DNA of 64,000 bases from Urechis unicinctus. Its lineage: Eukaryota; Annelida; Polychaeta; Xenopneusta; Urechidae. The stretch is taken from contig CM067343.1 of NCBI GenBank assembly GCA_034190875.2, positions 63,642,976 through 63,706,975 of the forward strand, read 5' to 3'. Positions 26,740 to 48,558 of this stretch are shown here, one piece after another. The notes under the pieces are model-generated. The model was not told the origin of the DNA and did not search any database. It worked only from the letters and a program-made list of their open reading frames with translations. Every line of letters begins with the position of its first letter. Within the stretch, counting starts at the first letter, position 1. Position numbers and translations under genes: made by a program.

Positions 26740-27100
26740 GGCGAGGTCAACCACCACCAACATACCTCCCACACCCCCTCTTTGCCGAGCTGCACCCACC
26801 ATCAACATACCTCATCATCCACACTCCTCGCCGAGCTGCACCCACCGCCATCATACCTCCCACACACCCCTCCTCGTCGAGCTGCACCCACCACCAACAT
26901 ACCTCCCACCCACCCTCCTCGCCGAGCTGCACCCACCACCAACATACCTCCCACACCCCCTCCTCGCCGAGCTGCAACCACCACCAACATACCTCCCACA
27001 CCCCCTCCTCGCCGAGCTGCACCCACCACCAACATACCTCCCACACACCCTCCTCGCCGAGCTGCAACCACCACCAACATACCTCCCACACCCCCTCTTT
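26740..27100. repeat. Minisatellite, about 46-bp unit, 7-8 copies
   Basis: Unit contains GCCGAGCTGCACCCACCACC followed by AACATACCTCCCACAC. It begins 45 bp after the EF-hand gene polyadenylation signal. Open frames on both strands (His/Pro-rich or Gly/Trp-rich) come from the repeat. Confidence 0.9.
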
Positions 27101-38989: not shown

Positions 38990-41900
38990 TTAAGGAGATT
39001 CTTGTGCGTCTAATCCATTCAGAGGGAGAGGCGGGCTATCGCGCAATTTGTCAGTCGGTATAGTTTTAGCAGACATGATGATAACGGGCGGAACAGGAGA
39101 TTCCATCTGCTGTGCATCAGTGAAGATAGAGTTGTCATCAGGTTCTGGTTGAACCAGGTTTTCAGGGGATGTCGAGCTGAGTAAAGTCACTGAATCACTG
39201 CATAAAAAATAAGAAACTCATCTTTGGAAAATACAACACCCAACAAGAAAGACTATTCATTGACTATGAATTTCAGTGTGATATGTCACCACAACAAAGC
39301 GGCAATTCCAATAAAATTCAGACACTTCAACATTAAATGGTCATCTCAAAATAAGGTCAATTTGAACTATCATTACCTTTCCAAGATAAGCGCACACATA
39401 AAATCTTAAAAGAACTATGACAACATGCCAAACACAACCTCTGTGACTCAACATTTTCAGTAAAACAACTTACTCCTGTGGTGACTCAATTGTGCTTCCA
39501 CGGCCACGACCTCCACTGTGACCCCGTGTTCGCTCCTCCAGGGTGATTTGGGTCATGTCATGACCCCCACTTCCTGCTGACTGAGAACCTGTTCTGCGAC
39601 CTCGATTTTTATTCTGTCCACCATTGTAGAACTGATTGGCTGGTACCTTGAGAAGGAACAAAGACAAGCACCAGACTGAACCTGACTAGGACAATACTGA
39701 CAATGTCTGGTGGCATGCAAGCTACAATAAAGGCCTCTGACCAAATATAAATCCAAAAGGATATGTTACGAGCTCTACCTGATATGAGCGAGGTCCACTG
39801 CCGCGGGCCCGCGTGGACACTATGCCTCGAGAACCCCTGGAATAATATGGATAATAAGTGACCAGGCAATAACAAACAGATGAAGACACAATGATGAAAC
39901 AGGAGTATATACGGCATGGCATGTAATGTTGTACAGCATATATGAACTTTCTGTTGTTAAATATTCTTTTTCTCCCACCTTCGCTGGTCATCACCAATTA
40001 CGTTGCAGATGTGAGGGGGAGGGCCTTTACCACGCCCCTTACGCCGCCCACCACCTGATCCCATCATGTCATGGTAACCAGTATGCAGCCGATGCTGTGA
40101 CTGATGCTGCGACTGATGCTGCGACTGATGCTGCAACTGATGCTGCGACTGATGCTGCTGCCGACTGGCTCCCCAGTTGCCCACGACAACCCCAGCAATC
40201 TGTAGCTGACCTCCACGTCTTTCACTGGGTCCCTGACCTGCACCTCATATCAATAACAGGTCAGGTTATGTAAAGTGTCGCAAAACAGTGATAAACATGT
40301 GTATGCAATGAGGCCACTCAGTGTGGAATAAAGCATGTTATATTAAATTAACAAGCAGGCCTAAGCAAATGGTCAACCAGAGGGCATAGGATACTCAATC
40401 AAACACAAGGGTTCAATGAACAGCTCTTTGTATTTGAATGGCAGTTTTCATAGGATACATATCACAGTGTAAAGATCACTGGGACGGATCCATTAAGTGG
40501 ATCATTGCTCAGCAGCAGCAGCAGCAGGAGGAACCTCCAAATGTCCACCTCAGACACTCACCTAGCAGACCCCTACCCCTTCCAATCCCGCGACCATGTG
40601 ACATCTGCTGGGCAGCATAACCCCGCCCCCTGCCTGCCCCCACAGGTGCGCCAGCCGGGATGAAGTTGATATCACTGTACATTGGGGTGCGAGGCTGCTG
40701 GTGTTGCTGCTGCATGAAAGGGCCGTGCGGACGGGCAAACACCATCTCTGAAGAGTAGCCTTGGAGGATGGCTTTCCTCATTTGCTCAATCCTCATAGCC
40801 TGGTCATTCTGCCATACATAAATCAAGCATTATTAGAAAAATGACTGAGTCAATATATACAGCCTAATTATACCAGTGAATGTGCCTACAGATTATGGCA
40901 AAAACACAATATCCAGTCATAAAACATTTGTCATAGGTGGTCAACCACAGAATATCAATATGTCACCTTATCAGATATACTAGTCAAGAGGCTATACTAT
41001 GGCCTGCTACAAAATCAACAAGCATAACTGATAAACATAACTACCATAATGTGGAAGACCCCTTTTATATTCATGTGGAATAGAATACAGACACTTACTA
41101 GTAGGTAAGTAATTGTTCAGTAAAGCAGAATCAGACTTGAATGCACTGGTAAGCATGAAAGACTTGATGGAAACTTTGTTAGCAAATGAGGGCTTTTAAC
41201 CATAAAATTCATCATAAGACCAGTCTCGCAGTAAAACACCACCTAAAAATCACATGATGATACCCCAGAGCCAGAGTTAGCCTCGAGCCATAGGAGACCA
41301 GAGCCACAGAATGATGGAGCCTCATAACAGCCCAGAGCCTCATAACAACAGCCCAGAGCCTCATAACAACAGCCCAGAGCGTCATAACAGCCCAGAGCCA
41401 AATAACAATATCCCAGAGCCAAATAACAATATCCCTGAGTCAAATAACAATATCCCAGAGCCAAATAATGACAGCCCAGAGCCATAAAACAACAATGCAG
41501 AGCCACAAGACAACAGCCTAGAACCACATGACAGCCAAGCTCCATGTGAAACCAGAGCCAAAGACTGACTGCCCCAAGCCACGTGCGAGCTCAGAGCCAC
41601 ATCATAACAGCTCCAAGCCAAATGACATAAGAGCTCAGAGCCGTAAAAAGACTTGCACAACGAAATGACAGAATACTTACAAAGCCATCAGAGAGCTCCA
41701 TCAATGAAGCATGGTTGCTTGCTTTCAGGTACTTAAAATGAAACAGCTTGCCATCAAAGAAGAGCCAAGGTGAGCAGCAGTTCCAGGGGATGGGGGCACC
41801 AACAGCATCATTGACGAAGATAGCATGGTCGACACCACTCATGAAGAGGGAGGCTAGCTGCAGGGCACGAGGTTCTACCTTAGGCAGCTACGCACACACA

Positions 41901-44900
41901 TACAGAGGTCACATGATTGGGAGGTTTCTTCATTGGCAGCTTGCAATGCATGATATTTCTTAACAATATATGAAAATAAAACTAGACTTTAAAAATGACA
42001 CGATAACAGAACATATCCTCCAAAAGGCTTTAAAAGTAGCATATCCAAAAAATAACCACCGCATTAACTCATATATATGTCACATATTATGGACAATTTT
42101 TGTACAAAAGAGACTTGCTGTGTGGAAAGAAGCTTAACTGAACGATGAAATTAATATGTATGTGTGGGCCATTATGTGAAGTTCATGTGGGATATCTATT
42201 GCATGTCCCCGAGCGCTACATCTATAATGAATAAATTACTGCATTGTGACTTGTCAAATCAAGTCTGGCATCATGAGGATCGTGAAGTTCACGTCACTGT
42301 TTAACACAAAGACGCTCTGTTCCCGAAGGCTAGTTTCCAAGTGGTTGTAATTAGCATGGATACAAGAATTAAATTTACTAATTGATGAACATGGCGAAAT
42401 GTGTTACATGTTGCAATGAAGAAAAATGCTGTTTGCATTACAGTTATGTTATACTAATCGTTTTTATAAAAAAACAACCCTACGTAACACAGCTACCTGA
42501 CTCATCTTGCTCCTCATTCTTCTCCCTCATCTCCCATCCACCCCATCTGACCTCATTCTTCTCCCTCATCTCCCATCCAATCCACCTGACCTCATTCTTC
42601 TCCCTCATCTCCCATCCACCCCACCTGACCTCATTCTTCTCCCTCATCTCCCATCCACTCCACCTGACCTCATTCCAGAGCCGTGGCCTCTCAATCATAC
42701 GGCTTATTCTCAGCACCACAAAACTATTTTTGCGTCAAGTAAGTGAGAGGATAGCTTATAACTGAATCAAATGTTTTGATTCAAACAGATAGGTGGGTCA
42801 ACAACATATTCTTTTATATTTAATCTTGATGATGGTCACTTTCCATGTAATATTAATTTCGTACCAAATTCCAAGGCTATATATGAGGGGTGCGACCTAT
42901 AAGTAAATAAGGTGATCTCATAATAGAAGACCAACTATAAACAAGCCAGTGGCTCATCTTGCCTTCATCTCCTGCACACGTTCAGGGTCATGCAGCAGTG
43001 GCGAGACAGCGGTGGCCAGGAAAGCATCCAGTTCATGGCGACGTAAAATCCTCTGGCCTTTATACAAGACGATATACCTGACAGTCACACATAACAAGAC
43101 AGCGACACGGTCAGATTCATCAAACTACACCACAAATAGATTGTTAAAGCTTAAATACACACTCATTTTATCCTTTCAAAAAATCCCAAAATTTTTACGC
43201 AAAAAAATTATGGACAAATGAATGAATTCAGTCATGATCAACCAATAAAAAGTCAGAGTCACCTGAGAACACAGCACATGAGGAGGAGGTTCTGATGGAC
43301 GTAGGACGTGTTCATCAGAAGGTTGTGAGGCAGGTCACAATGGAGACAGCTCATGAAGGCTCGTAAACGTCGGTTCTTATCATCTGCCGTAGGACCTAGC
43401 CAGAGTCGCTGGATGCCCGATACCAGCCAGTCGACAGGTTCTGCTTGCACCGTGTCACATCGAGGACCCCCGGACATGAGCAGCTTGGGCATCACCCACT
43501 CACGTACACTAACTTTAGGTCGCTCCAACTTCTTCTCATTATCTGAGATCAAATCAACCACGGAGTAGTTACTTGGTATGGACAACTTCGATACAGAAAT
43601 CTCTGCTGATTAAATCCTCATCACAAATAAATTAGGGAAAACACTGCGTGGGTTTAACAAAAAATTTATGCAGTTTCATCAGATTCTTAGATTATAAAAA
43701 CCCAGATTGCATAAGTTGACTAGGTTGAAATAAAAGGCGGCTTCTGACTTTTATCTTTCCTCTTGCGGTTGTATTCAGCGAGTTGTTTACTGAGATCAAA
43801 GAGAATGGCGTAGACATGTTGGCGCATGAGTCGGAAGACATCGATAGAGTAGGGCAGCTGAGGGTCATTCTCATCTTCTAACCCCTGACCTAACTTAATT
43901 TCACCCTGTAACAATCACAGGCATGTACACTTAGTGATGATACCCGCATTTAACCTGCAGCAGCACACAACAGCATTTCTTTCACTTATGGCAGAGAAGG
44001 ATATTAGTGTTAAACTTACTTCATGTATGGAAGCAATCAGTCTTTGTGTTTTATTGCTATACATAGATGTATTGATGCAAGAGGCTGTTGTTTTACCTGA
44101 GATAGAATCTGGTAGATGTATTGATTCAAGAAGCCATTGTTTTACCTGAGATAGAATCTGGTAGATGTATGGATGCAAGAGGCTGTAGTTTTACCTGAGA
44201 TAGAATCTAGTAGATGTATTGATGCAAGAGGCTGTTGTTTTACCTGAGATAGAATCTGGTAGATGTATTGATTCATGAAGCCATTGTTTTACCTGAGATA
44301 GAATCTGGTAGATGCATGGATGCAAGAGGCTGTTGTTTTACCTGAGATAGAATCTGGTAGATGTATTGATTCATGAAGCCATTGTTTTACCTGAGATAGA
44401 ATCTGGTAGATGTATGGATGCAAGAGGCTGTTGTTTTACCTGAGATAGAATCTAGTAGATGTATTGATGCAAGAGGCTGTTGTTTTACCTGAGATAGAAT
44501 CTGGTAGATGTATTGATGCAAGAGGCTGTTGTTTTACCTGAGATAGAATCTGGTAGATGTATTGATGCAAGAGGCTGTTGTTTTACCTGAGATAGAATCT
44601 GGTAGATGTATTGATATAAGAAGCCATTGTTTTACCTGAGATAGAATCTGGTAGATGTATTGATATTAGAAGCCATTGTTTTACCTGAGATAGAATCTGG
44701 TAGATGTATGGATGCATGAGGCCTTTATGGTGCCTCTCAGCCGCCACCTGTAGCACCTGCTGTGGAACATTGGGACATTTGTGCTCCTTGCGGGTGTTAG
44801 ACTGTTTCTTTGCTTTGCTCACATTGGTTGCTTTGGGCTTGTCTGATTTGGAGGCTTGAGTAGAGCTGCTTGCCTCATCTGCATTTATGATCACCACAGC

Positions 44901-47900
44901 TTTCAAAGAAAATAAAATGGGATAACAACTGAGTCATTCACAACAGATATATTTGTATCCTCTATTCATAGGGGATACAAACATTCCATGAACTACCTTT
45001 GACTTTGACGGCTATAATATCTGACTGCTCTTCAGAACTGAGTGATAATTCGACCAGCTGTTCCGCTAGAGCCCCCTCAGCTACCCCGACCTCAAGCACT
45101 ATGTTTTCCTGAGTTGTACTGTGTGAGCTTTCAGTTGAGTCAGCGATATCTGGGGTGGTTTGAGGCTTGTTATCATCTGTATGTGATTCGCTGCTGTCTC
45201 CGTAACCAGAACGTATATCTGTGTAAATGCTGTCAGCCGAGAAACCAGACTGCAAGAACGCAAAATATGAAATTGGGGAACTGTGTATAATTACGTCAAC
45301 AGGGCACCATCTTAGAGCAACAACACGCAAACCTCTAATAGCGAGTGGGTAGCACAACAATAAAGCTATCACATATATATATAAGGTGGCTATGAATGCT
45401 GAAAAAAGGAATGGAAAAGATATCGCCAGGACAAGTGATGATGGTCCCTTACCACTTCCTCATCTGTCACTTCTTTCTTTTCAGGTTTTTCTACAACTTC
45501 TTTTTTCTTGTTTCTCTTATTGCCTTTCGCTTGGTAGCTTCCTGGCTGGACAGCACTAGATACCTCAGACACTGCAGCAAATAATGTATGGGTGACAATA
45601 TCTCTCTGATGACAAGCCAATCAACAAGTGATATGCACACTCGTTGACTTGAAGTGCCCATGGACCCCAGCAACATCATACGCATGTGGCTATCATCAGC
45701 ATTGGCAAAGCAATACTCAATGAAAGTGGGTAATTTTAGATGTTTCTGTGACTTGATTGACTAGCCACTCACCTTGTTTATTCTTGGGGAAGTATTTCAG
45801 AAAACCATCCTTGGTGCCATTTAAGTAGTAGTGAACACTTTGACGAAACCGGTCAATTTTGTCAGCAACATTTCCAAGTGAAGTCCTAGTAATTTTGGAA
45901 AAAAAAGAAATATACTGCATATCTGAGCTTGGGTTAACGAGCTTCCAGCTGGTAAGTTATTGTGTAAGGCAAAGAAGAGAAGCGTGAATACAACGAACAG
46001 TGTCATTCTATGAGAGTAATACACAATGGACATTTACTTGCCTTATAATTTGTTCAGCATTCCTCGTACAACGGGCATACAAACCCACAGAGTTAGAGAT
46101 GGTCATACAACCAACAAGATTGATAGCTACCTGAATACCTGCATCCCCAGTTCATCCAAATCCTCCACTGACTTGATACCCCTCACATAATTGATGACTG
46201 CCCTCACCACTATTCCTGGCTGTAGCTGATAACATATCACAAACAGACATACTGAAGGGTGCTACAAACATTGTCTAGAATAAGAAAGCAAAAATAAAAA
46301 TAATGGTCAGATTCGCAATGATCAACTACCACACAGGGATAGCATGGGACGCAGGCGATGTGCAAGTTCAGATACTTGGCTCTTACTAAACGTAGAACAA
46401 TTTACCTTGGCCACCTGAGCAGGGAATTCTTGTTCACAGATCATACAATAGAAGTCCTGTAGATCTTCAACAGGGAGCAAGTGTGTTCCTGTTGAGCAAA
46501 TGGAAATTATCAGGGGTTAAAGCCATTTGTAAGGTAAGGTAAGGTAAGGTAAGGTAAGGTAAGGTAAGGTAAGGTAAGGTAAGGTAAGGTAAGGTAAGGT
46601 AAGGTAAGGTAAGGTAAGGTAAGCATGGTGCCAACAAAGGAGAGGGAAGCCATTTTCAATATCAGACCTTGTTTGCTTAAGATCCAGAAGCAAAATTTTA
46701 AAAATTACGCATCCTCATGCAAGAGAACAGAGGAAAAGTCATCTAAATCTATGTCTTTCATCAAATCAGAAAGCAGAAGACTTTCCCGAAATTATTGATA
46801 TGACTGAAATGTTTTAAATGTCAATTATAACTGCATTTTGTACCGTGGTGGCCACCATGACAGTTCAAGTGATATCACTGATAAGGGTACCCAGCATTAT
46901 GATTTAGTGTGACCAGTTACCAACACCTCTGATCAGTAGTTCAGTACAGAAAGATGAAGTCAGCTAAACACCACCATACATTAAACTGCCATGGCTATGT
47001 AAGTAAGTATAGGGTTCAACAGCACACCAACACTAACGTGTTATAAGGTGCCTAGAAAGGTAAGTAGATAAGTTTGACCTGATTAAGCAGCCGTCATCTA
47101 GGATGAAAGGAAAAAGACGGAAAATACATGAATGAAGATGAAAATTATAAAAATGCAAACGAATATCCAAGGGCAAGTCACCACCGGCCGATTGACTGGA
47201 CCAGGCCATTCCAGCATCTCGTCTAGGCGAAATCCAGGCCAAAGTGATGTGTTGAAGATATGTCCCTCACAAGGACCACTATTCTCAACCGACTGGATCT
47301 CACTGCCCACCGACATGAGTCGCAACCCACGGCCATCAGGTTGCCCCCTATTAGTCGCCCCTTACGACATGCAGAAGGATACAGTGGGTCTATTCTACAC
47401 CCAGACCCACAGGGGGTGGCCACGTGTAAAAAAATCCCTTAACTTTATTTAACACCATGTGTCAGAAGGATAATTCAAAAAGAATTTAATCTATGCATAC
47501 CTTAATGATATCAAGCTAAACCTATTACACAGAGCTTAAAAAGGGGTGTTACATTTCCCCATTTGGGTCTATACTAGCTATATGGCCCACCCTCGCCATG
47601 TGTGCTTAAACTTGCCACTGCTTTCGCGGTTATTTAAAAGCTTCCGATGGGCATAAAACTTATCCTGTCATACAAACTGTACCTGCTGGGCAATATGTAC
47701 CATTTTCACAAAGAAATATTAAGCAGCGACAAATTCAAAGGGAGTGGCGAGTTTAGGCCCTATAGCTTGCACAGGTAAAGTGACAAAGTTTAGCTGTACA
47801 CCTCAAATCTTCAATAAAACATACAATCACCAGCAACCCATACCTAAAAGGGCTGCGAGGACTGAGAATCTCTTAGGGTTCAAATCAACAGCTTTGGCAA

Positions 47901-48558
47901 CATCGTCAATCACATATTCCTGAGTTTCCAGAGAGCCTTTATAGGTCAGTTTTAGATTATGTGCAGAAAAATATCTGGGTGGATCAAAAACTGCATAGTC
48001 TGCATCATGAGCAATGATGCCACTGTAATTATTTTCCCTGCAAAATGCGATAACTTCTTGGTGATGGTCATCCATTGATGAAGCCATGGGAACACAGAGA
48101 CCCCGCAAAGCCATACGCAGGGATGTCTCCATGCAAGCAGGTGCTATCCACCATACTTTGGGTGGTGGCGTTGATTTGTGATGCACATGTTTAAGTACCT
48201 TATGTGCATTGTTCCTGATTTTAAGCTGACGACTATACCACTCAATTCGACGCTCCCTCTCCATGGCACCATTAACGTATACCAACAAGTCCAAATTGGC
48301 AGCATGACAGGTCTTGAAAAGGTTGGAAAGGAATATAATCATGCGTGCCCACTCGCCCCCACAAGCCCAATCGGAATAAAATCCTCCGTAGAGACGGTCA
48401 AGACAACTGTCAACGTCGACAACCAGTCGGAGTCTGCCTCCACGACGTCGGGCAGATTTGGAGGACGACACACCTCTTGACAGCTCCACCAAGTCGACCG
48501 GCTTACATGCCTGCTGGCAATGCGTCTCAATAAACTCTTGTAGATCTTGAATCCCCAT
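38990..48558 (-). CDS. FAM120A: FAM120A/C-family protein (constitutive coactivator of PPARG-like)
   Basis: Sixteen minus-strand coding exons: 47844-48558, 46406-46488, 46131-46225, 45773-45885, 45453-45571, 44997-45249, 44685-44899, 43749-43905, 43263-43602, 42963-43077, 41681-41878, 40562-40808, 39979-40243, 39779-39836, 39474-39646 and 38990-39197. They total 3354 bp, 1117 codons plus stop, in phase throughout and close to vertebrate FAM120A (about 1118). The N-terminus MGIQDLQEFIETHC begins the XPG/FEN-like PIN fold, with LVVDVDSCLDRLYGGFYSDW, EDLQDF and HDADYAVFDPP. Conserved central blocks are GLMHPYIYQIL, LWLGPTADDKNRRLRAFMSC and LFMSGVDHAIFVNDAVGAPI. The C-terminus is RG-rich, including AGRGRGY and GRGIGRGRG. 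The mammalian protein is an RNA-binding scaffold linked to Src/PI3K signalling. Two oddities: exon 10 ends in a GC donor, and exon 7's donor is repeated in a downstream array. Confidence 0.93.
40083..40170 (-). repeat. Coding 12-bp repeat (His-Gln-Ser-Gln) in FAM120A exon 13
   Basis: CAGCATCAGTCG-type units in tandem, six to seven copies, encode HQSQHQLQHQSQHQSQ-like sequence between the VVVGNWGAS block and the RRKGRGKG block. The frame is kept because the unit is a multiple of three. The vertebrate protein has RG-rich sequence here, so this is a lineage-specific expansion. Confidence 0.85.
41280..41650. repeat. Degenerate ~20-bp repeat in FAM120A intron 11
   Basis: Many variants of CCCAGAGCCAAATAACAATA / CCAGAGCCTCATAACAACAG in tandem. 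The Leu/Gly-rich minus-strand open frames are artefacts of the array. Confidence 0.85.
42507..42675. repeat. Minisatellite, ~39-bp unit, in FAM120A intron 10
   Basis: About four copies of CTCATTCTTCTCCCTCATCT followed by CCCATCCACCCCACCTGAC. On the transcribed (minus) strand it is purine-rich. Confidence 0.9.
44065..44705. repeat. Tandem array copying a FAM120A exon end and its splice donor
   Basis: About 13 units of roughly 49 bp. On the minus (gene) strand each unit contains CAGATTCTATCTCAG, then GTAAAACAA, a GGCTTCT or GCCTCTTG-like spacer, and CATCTAC. This is the 3' end of exon 7 (encoding YQILSQ, ending at 44685) plus its donor and the first intron bases. The exon copy at 44685-44705 is the terminal unit. 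Units come in subtypes: GATGCAAGAGGCTGTTG and GATTCA(A/T)GAAGCCATTG on the plus strand. Confidence 0.93.
46531..46620. repeat. (AAGGT)18 microsatellite in FAM120A intron 1
   Basis: Eighteen perfect AAGGT pentamers. On the gene's transcribed strand this is pyrimidine-rich ACCTT, just upstream of the exon 2 acceptor (exon begins at 46488). Confidence 0.98.

Follow-up and report, generated by a model that had tools for sequence, protein, structure and literature searches.

A 49-bp tandem array repeats the exon 7 splice donor of a FAM120A-like gene and has the structure of a mirage-type minisatellite

Results

The FAM120A-like gene and the array at its exon 7-intron 7 border

The analysed window is a stretch of 64,000 nucleotides on a 73.7-Mb contig of a 1.19-Gb assembly. 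It carries on its minus strand a gene which we take to belong to the FAM120A family, a name that comes from an earlier note on this DNA and from general knowledge. In a hand-built model the frame is open throughout, and the introns comprise 14 of the GT-AG type and one of the GC-AG type. The GC donor belongs to intron 10 (AAG/GCAAGA at 42962, minus strand; the slash marks the splice border), and intron 8 has a weak donor (AAA/GTCAGA at 43748, minus strand). Pfam returned for the predicted protein a weak, sub-threshold XPG_I row (E 0.01) and two chance-level rows, and no match was obtained for its first 897 residues in the PDB or for its first 263 residues in NCBIfam. Elsewhere in the window, a 45-bp tandem repeat lies in an open frame at 26751-27097 and is possibly coding or exon-linked. 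The features around exon 7 are as follows:

38990..48558, minus strand: FAM120A-like gene, 16 coding exons, 1128 aa (hand-built model)
44685..44899, minus strand: exon 7, 215 nt, phase 0 end, terminating in ...GLMHPYIYQILSQ (hand-built model)
43906..44684, minus strand: intron 7, 779 nt, acceptor TTGTTACAG/GG (hand-built model)
43749..43905, minus strand: exon 8, GEIKLGQGLED... (hand-built model)
44064..44724, minus strand: tandem array of 13 full 49-bp units and one 24-nt partial unit (TRF, repeat finder, script)
44685..44724, minus strand: 40 exonic nt of unit 1, the coding version of the segment that is repeated (unit alignment)
44676..44684, minus strand: donor 1, GTAAAACAA, sole donor yielding the full protein (hand-built model)
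44088..44675, minus strand: units 2-13, each with a CAG/GTAAAAC donor (script)
44635, 44586, 44537, 44488, 44439, 44390, 44341, 44292, 44243, 44194, 44145, 44096, minus strand: first intron G of units 2-13
44087-44064, minus strand: 14th unit, partial, 24 nt, without donor

TRF described the array (44064-44722) as a repeat with a period of 49, 13.4 copies, 91% matches, 0% indels and a score of 1080, and all copies listed by the repeat finder were spaced 49 nt from start to start. A script run over positions 43900 to 44800 found 13 exact copies of CAGGTAAAAC. The donor 10-mer CAG/GTAAAAC is identical in all 13 full units, and the first intron G, located at 44684 in unit 1 and at 44096 in unit 13, recurs at a distance of exactly 49 in each of the 12 steps. 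The earlier note had described about 13 donors in units of about 49 bp; the donors are indeed 13 and exact, and the unit measures exactly 49 bp throughout. The first donor was placed there at 44685, but that position is the final base of the exon; the donor begins at 44684.

Each unit consists of about 40 nt of the end of exon 7 and 9 nt of intron 7, and AGGCCTCATGCATCC of exon 7 is still recognisable within the units. That the unit carries an exon end had been proposed before and agrees with the hand-built model, although the exonic share is about 40 nt and not merely the last codons. This composition bears out the idea that a real exon-intron border seeded the array. The acceptor of intron 7 lies past the array, in sequence that is no copy of the unit.

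Alignment of the units, suggested earlier as a check, gave the exact period of 49 and showed unit 1 to agree with each of units 2-13 at 42-46 of 49 positions. Units 6, 7 and 8 are identical to units 11, 12 and 13 at 48, 49 and 48 of 49 positions, respectively, which fits a duplication of unit blocks. Variability is unequal along the unit. Among units 2-13, variable columns number 8 of the first 15 versus 3 of the last 34, the donor half (Fisher p 0.0014, which is only indicative, since the unit columns have a common ancestry and the boundary at column 15 was set post hoc), and 51 of the 55 mismatches to the coding copy fall within the first 15 columns. This uneven divergence could reflect selection on the donors, conversion from the exon or early differences between sub-types. 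A 98-nt array query had seven matches in the genome, all inside the FAM120A-like array, and no second haplotype was seen with this one query.

Masking of the donors by RNA structure was considered and rejected, as the fold of the array RNA is ordinary and not beyond chance (z 0.46; a fold as good or better was seen in 15 of 20 shuffles). An AATAAA hexamer resembling a poly(A) signal occupies 44050-44055 (minus strand). It begins 9 nt beyond the array, from which 8 nt separate it, and the last donor precedes it by about 40 nt. U1 bound at the array donors might suppress the use of this hexamer.

Reading frames and splice-site quality

Each of the 13 donors was spliced to exon 8 by script. Donor 1 led to the protein of 1128 aa, and the frame stayed open through this donor only; all 12 joins made with donors 2-13 ran into a premature stop, with products of 558 to 578 aa. 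The last exon junction lies 1540-2042 nt downstream of these stops. None of the 12 extensions keeps the protein, because a step of 49 nt is not divisible by three and the third donor brings a stop in the original frame. It had been anticipated that units of 48 or 51 bp would keep the frame and that the protein could vary with copy number; no step measures 48 or 51 (12 of 12 are 49), and at the locus as assembled every downstream donor leads to a premature stop. Such additions to the protein would fit other arrays of the genome, namely the ODR4-like array described below (36-nt unit, open frame) and possibly the ubiquitin hydrolase array. An effect of the array on the mRNA level of the FAM120A-like gene would be compatible with these frames.

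Splice sites were scored with a small matrix built from the gene's own 15 introns, which is a weak tool. The array donor scored 7.48, ninth from the bottom of the 15 leave-one-out donor scores. Taken as acceptors, the unit ends scored 3.09-3.74, inside the spread of the true acceptors in the leave-one-out test (-5.1 to 8.8); under the full matrix, none of the 15 true acceptors scored below the common unit, which was also equalled or exceeded by 144 of the 565 AG sites in the gene. The acceptor quality of the units is ordinary to weak, and a special acceptor or ratchet quality was therefore rejected.

Similar arrays at exon ends of other genes

The genome was searched for three CAGGTRAGT donors spaced 34-64 nt apart, a pattern outside which the FAM120A-like array itself falls, and 424 matches were obtained. 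By hand count, the matches listed (C1 to C6:35.4 Mb) include 39 distinct donor arrays, 31 of which have an open frame of at least 20 aa ending at a first donor. Twenty translations from 18 of these 31 arrays, picked by eye, were put to Pfam, where four of the 18 arrays matched at E < 0.001, and three of four single exons matched in the PDB set. If protein support means that a coding exon terminates at the first donor or continues into it, six of the 39 arrays are supported (18 of the 39 having been put to Pfam and four to the PDB set):

mTOR array exon: PDB, E 4e-12
cryptochrome array exon: PDB, E 4e-26
ATP synthase subunit b array exon: PDB, E 8e-10
OATP array exon: Pfam, E 3e-11
ODR4-like array exon: Pfam, E 2e-5, just below cut-off
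ubiquitin hydrolase array exon: Pfam, E 6e-4, below cut-off, matched stretch well upstream of the donor

The RIMBP2-like and VGCC_alpha2-like exons were too weak to count (E near 0.06), and the latter found no match in the PDB. Unit anatomy was detailed for 16 of the 39 arrays, picked by eye, and a second unit comparison spans all 39. The units hold 22-37 nt of exon in the mTOR, OATP, cryptochrome and ODR4-like arrays, four of the six supported; with the FAM120A-like gene included, the unit of these genes is made up of about 22-40 nt of exon end and about 8-12 nt of intron. Unit and exon share just 6 nt in the ATP synthase b array, and the border is ambiguous in the ubiquitin hydrolase array.

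For two of these genes the exons were joined across the first donor. The donor was fixed in both joins; for mTOR the acceptor was picked from five candidate AGs as the one with which the homology continued. The joined cryptochrome exons aligned without gaps to solved cryptochrome-1 (112 of 112 positions, 385-496), as did the joined mTOR exons to solved mTOR (117 of 117 positions, 1220-1336), and the first donor is thus the conserved one in both genes. A frameshift or an added stop results from every later donor of the mTOR (5 of 5), OATP (6 of 6), cryptochrome (9 of 9) and ATP synthase b (3 of 3) arrays. Two of three later donors of the ubiquitin hydrolase array are open and in frame, if the border is right. 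In the ODR4-like array (L055, G000:C5:64246827-64250907) both later donors leave the frame open and unshifted, and their use would lengthen the protein by 12 aa for each 36-nt unit.

Two pairs of related arrays were found. L071 and L074 (C2:69.25 Mb and 72.77 Mb, 3.5 Mb apart) have a common 53-nt exon-derived donor array and are 91.9% identical in the 250 nt that precede the donor. L054 and L056 (C5:56.69 Mb and 64.99 Mb) are 99.6% identical across those bases of the last 250 that align, and their arrays differ, with five and six strict donors; this difference is expected of an unstable minisatellite, or is the sign of an assembly duplicate. Donor arrays can persist, as in the first pair, and can also change, as in the second if its two loci are not an assembly duplicate.

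Read backwards, the donor pattern gave 216 matches compared to 424, whereas a rotated pattern with the same letters gave 470; the latter also contains GTRAGT and is therefore no clean control. Hand counts of arrays among the matches listed, C1 to C6:35.4 Mb, were 39 for the donor pattern versus about 15 for the backwards pattern (binomial p 0.0015) and about 25 for the rotated one, with one array in both donor and rotated sets. Array counts were rejected as proof of donor enrichment because the rotated pattern gave more matches. As the raw count exceeds one control but not the other, our argument rests on exon identity, examined in the donor-pattern arrays only, and not on abundance.

Discussion

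We consider it likely that the array is a mirage-type minisatellite which the FAM120A-like gene tolerates, with donor 1 as the productive splice site. Such an array would have started when a segment made of exon 7 end (about 40 nt) and intron start (9 nt) was duplicated in tandem, would then have grown through duplication of unit blocks, and would have kept the coding copy with its intact donor at the upstream edge. In this position donor 1 stays available to the spliceosome, which can take out the entire array together with the rest of intron 7. Any later donor would bring in an insert that shifts the frame or contains a stop, and the resulting transcript would be discarded, so that the array would be tolerated rather than used. 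We infer that donor 1 is used predominantly, that the other products decay and that the array has no function. Normal splicing despite an array may find indirect support in the conserved first-donor junction of the mTOR and cryptochrome genes.

Some considerations count against this reading. In mammalian studies the intron-proximal of two equal donors was often favoured, and such a preference would predict trouble for a gene with 13 identical donors. If donor 1 is preferred over 12 equal sites, the real exon end, acting through exon definition or enhancers, would be the natural suspect. The low variability of the donor half could moreover indicate selection or conversion instead of pure neutrality.

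The same low variability, together with the retention of one 10-mer in all 13 donors, would fit a choice between donor 1 and donors 2-13 that tunes the gene level via nonsense-mediated decay, with array length as the set point. The premature stops behind all 12 downstream donors, 1540-2042 nt upstream of the last exon junction, are likewise consistent with regulated unproductive splicing, but any out-of-frame array shows such stops without being regulatory, and amphioxus mirages are described, in the available text, without a disturbance of splicing (PMC3087553). We therefore regard regulation of this kind as improbable. Somewhat less probable still is an array that cancels itself: every unit ends in TTCTATCTCAG/GT, which combines an acceptor and a donor at one point (a ratchet point), and the original mRNA would be regained by splicing from donor 1 to a unit and onward, or by a second splicing step where a later donor had been misused. 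Scores of the unit acceptors within the gene's leave-one-out range are compatible with this, as are steps of at least 98 nt, which match the shortest intron of the gene (97 nt). However, the acceptor is ordinary to weak, being equalled or surpassed by all true acceptors and by 144 of the 565 AG sites, and the exon junction complex is reported, in the accessible part of the source, to block the re-splicing of spliced RNA (PMC8184009). Both of these readings might yet apply.

It is very improbable that intron 7 was itself gained recently when an exon segment that contains AGGT was duplicated (Rogers model): the units do carry AGGT, and tandem duplication is described in the text available to us as a genuine route of intron gain (PMC3443670), but the 3' end of the intron has its own acceptor, which is no unit copy. 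Extension of the protein by whole units, for which the ODR4-like array with its 36-nt unit and two open later donors would be suited, is refuted for the FAM120A-like locus as assembled, where all steps are 49 nt and all 12 extensions hit a premature stop.

Returning to the tolerated array with donor 1 in use, 13 identical donors at a real exon end constitute a natural experiment in which the spliceosome chooses among equal sites. Arrays at the exon ends of mTOR and cryptochrome in one genome suggest a recurrent process. More tentatively, and with considerable doubt, we propose that splice donors in the host animal may be birth hot spots for minisatellites, giving rise to a genome-wide class of arrays that multiply real donors while the conserved first donor is kept in use, with occasional in-frame extensions as in the ODR4-like gene (36-nt open unit).

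Comparison with known systems

Minisatellite-like repeats are reported in the first intron of earthworm metallothionein genes, and an origin at a splice border is not among the features given in the text available (PMC12783039). With intron gain through AGGT, as far as the available description goes (PMC3443670), the FAM120A-like array shares tandem copies of an AGGT-bearing exon segment; unlike in that model, intron 7 was enlarged at its 5' end and the two intron ends are not copies of one segment. Recursive splicing and ratchet points likewise involve, in the part of the source consulted, an acceptor-like tract followed by a donor (AG/GT) within an intron (PMC8605326). The AG/GT motif is present in the units and its use is putative, but the intron measures just 779 nt, the 13 copies are 49 nt apart and the acceptor score is ordinary to weak.

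The closest counterpart is found in the mirages of amphioxus, minisatellites that span exon-intron borders (PMC3087553, PMC3902484; here and below according to the available text). They were described in Adh3 and in the globin genes BflGb6 and BflGb9 (PMC3087553), with TnC and PGBD5 as further cases (PMC3902484). Their units measure 10-72 bp in Adh3 and 150-160 bp in the globins, BflGb6 haplotypes occur with six and three repeats (PMC3087553, PMC3902484), and RT-PCR suggested normal, undisturbed splicing (PMC3087553). In the open-licence literature, mostly at the level of titles and abstract openings, no mirage was recognised outside the cephalochordates; if the host is not a lancelet, a phenomenon seen in that literature for cephalochordates only would be widened. 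Of three Pfam families used to place the host, PF01303 and PF14830 had no match either in its assembly or in the control genomes and are thus uninformative, and PF00115 was present in 8 of 14 controls but absent from the assembly. Branchiostoma genomes measure about 0.5 Gb, a size that speaks against this genus. The 13 donors in a strict 49-bp register set the FAM120A-like array apart from the reported mirages, and the link to those of cephalochordates is one of kind, not of lineage. As in mirages, where the AG/GT signal recurs in many of the tandem units, the units cross the exon-intron border (about 40 nt of exon 7 and 9 nt of intron 7) and the authentic exon copy adjoins the array (PMC3087553, PMC3902484), at whose edge the gene is intact, with the 1128-aa frame of the hand-built model running through donor 1 only. 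The arrangement therefore has a precedent in amphioxus (PMC3087553), and the FAM120A-like array has the structure by which a mirage is defined.
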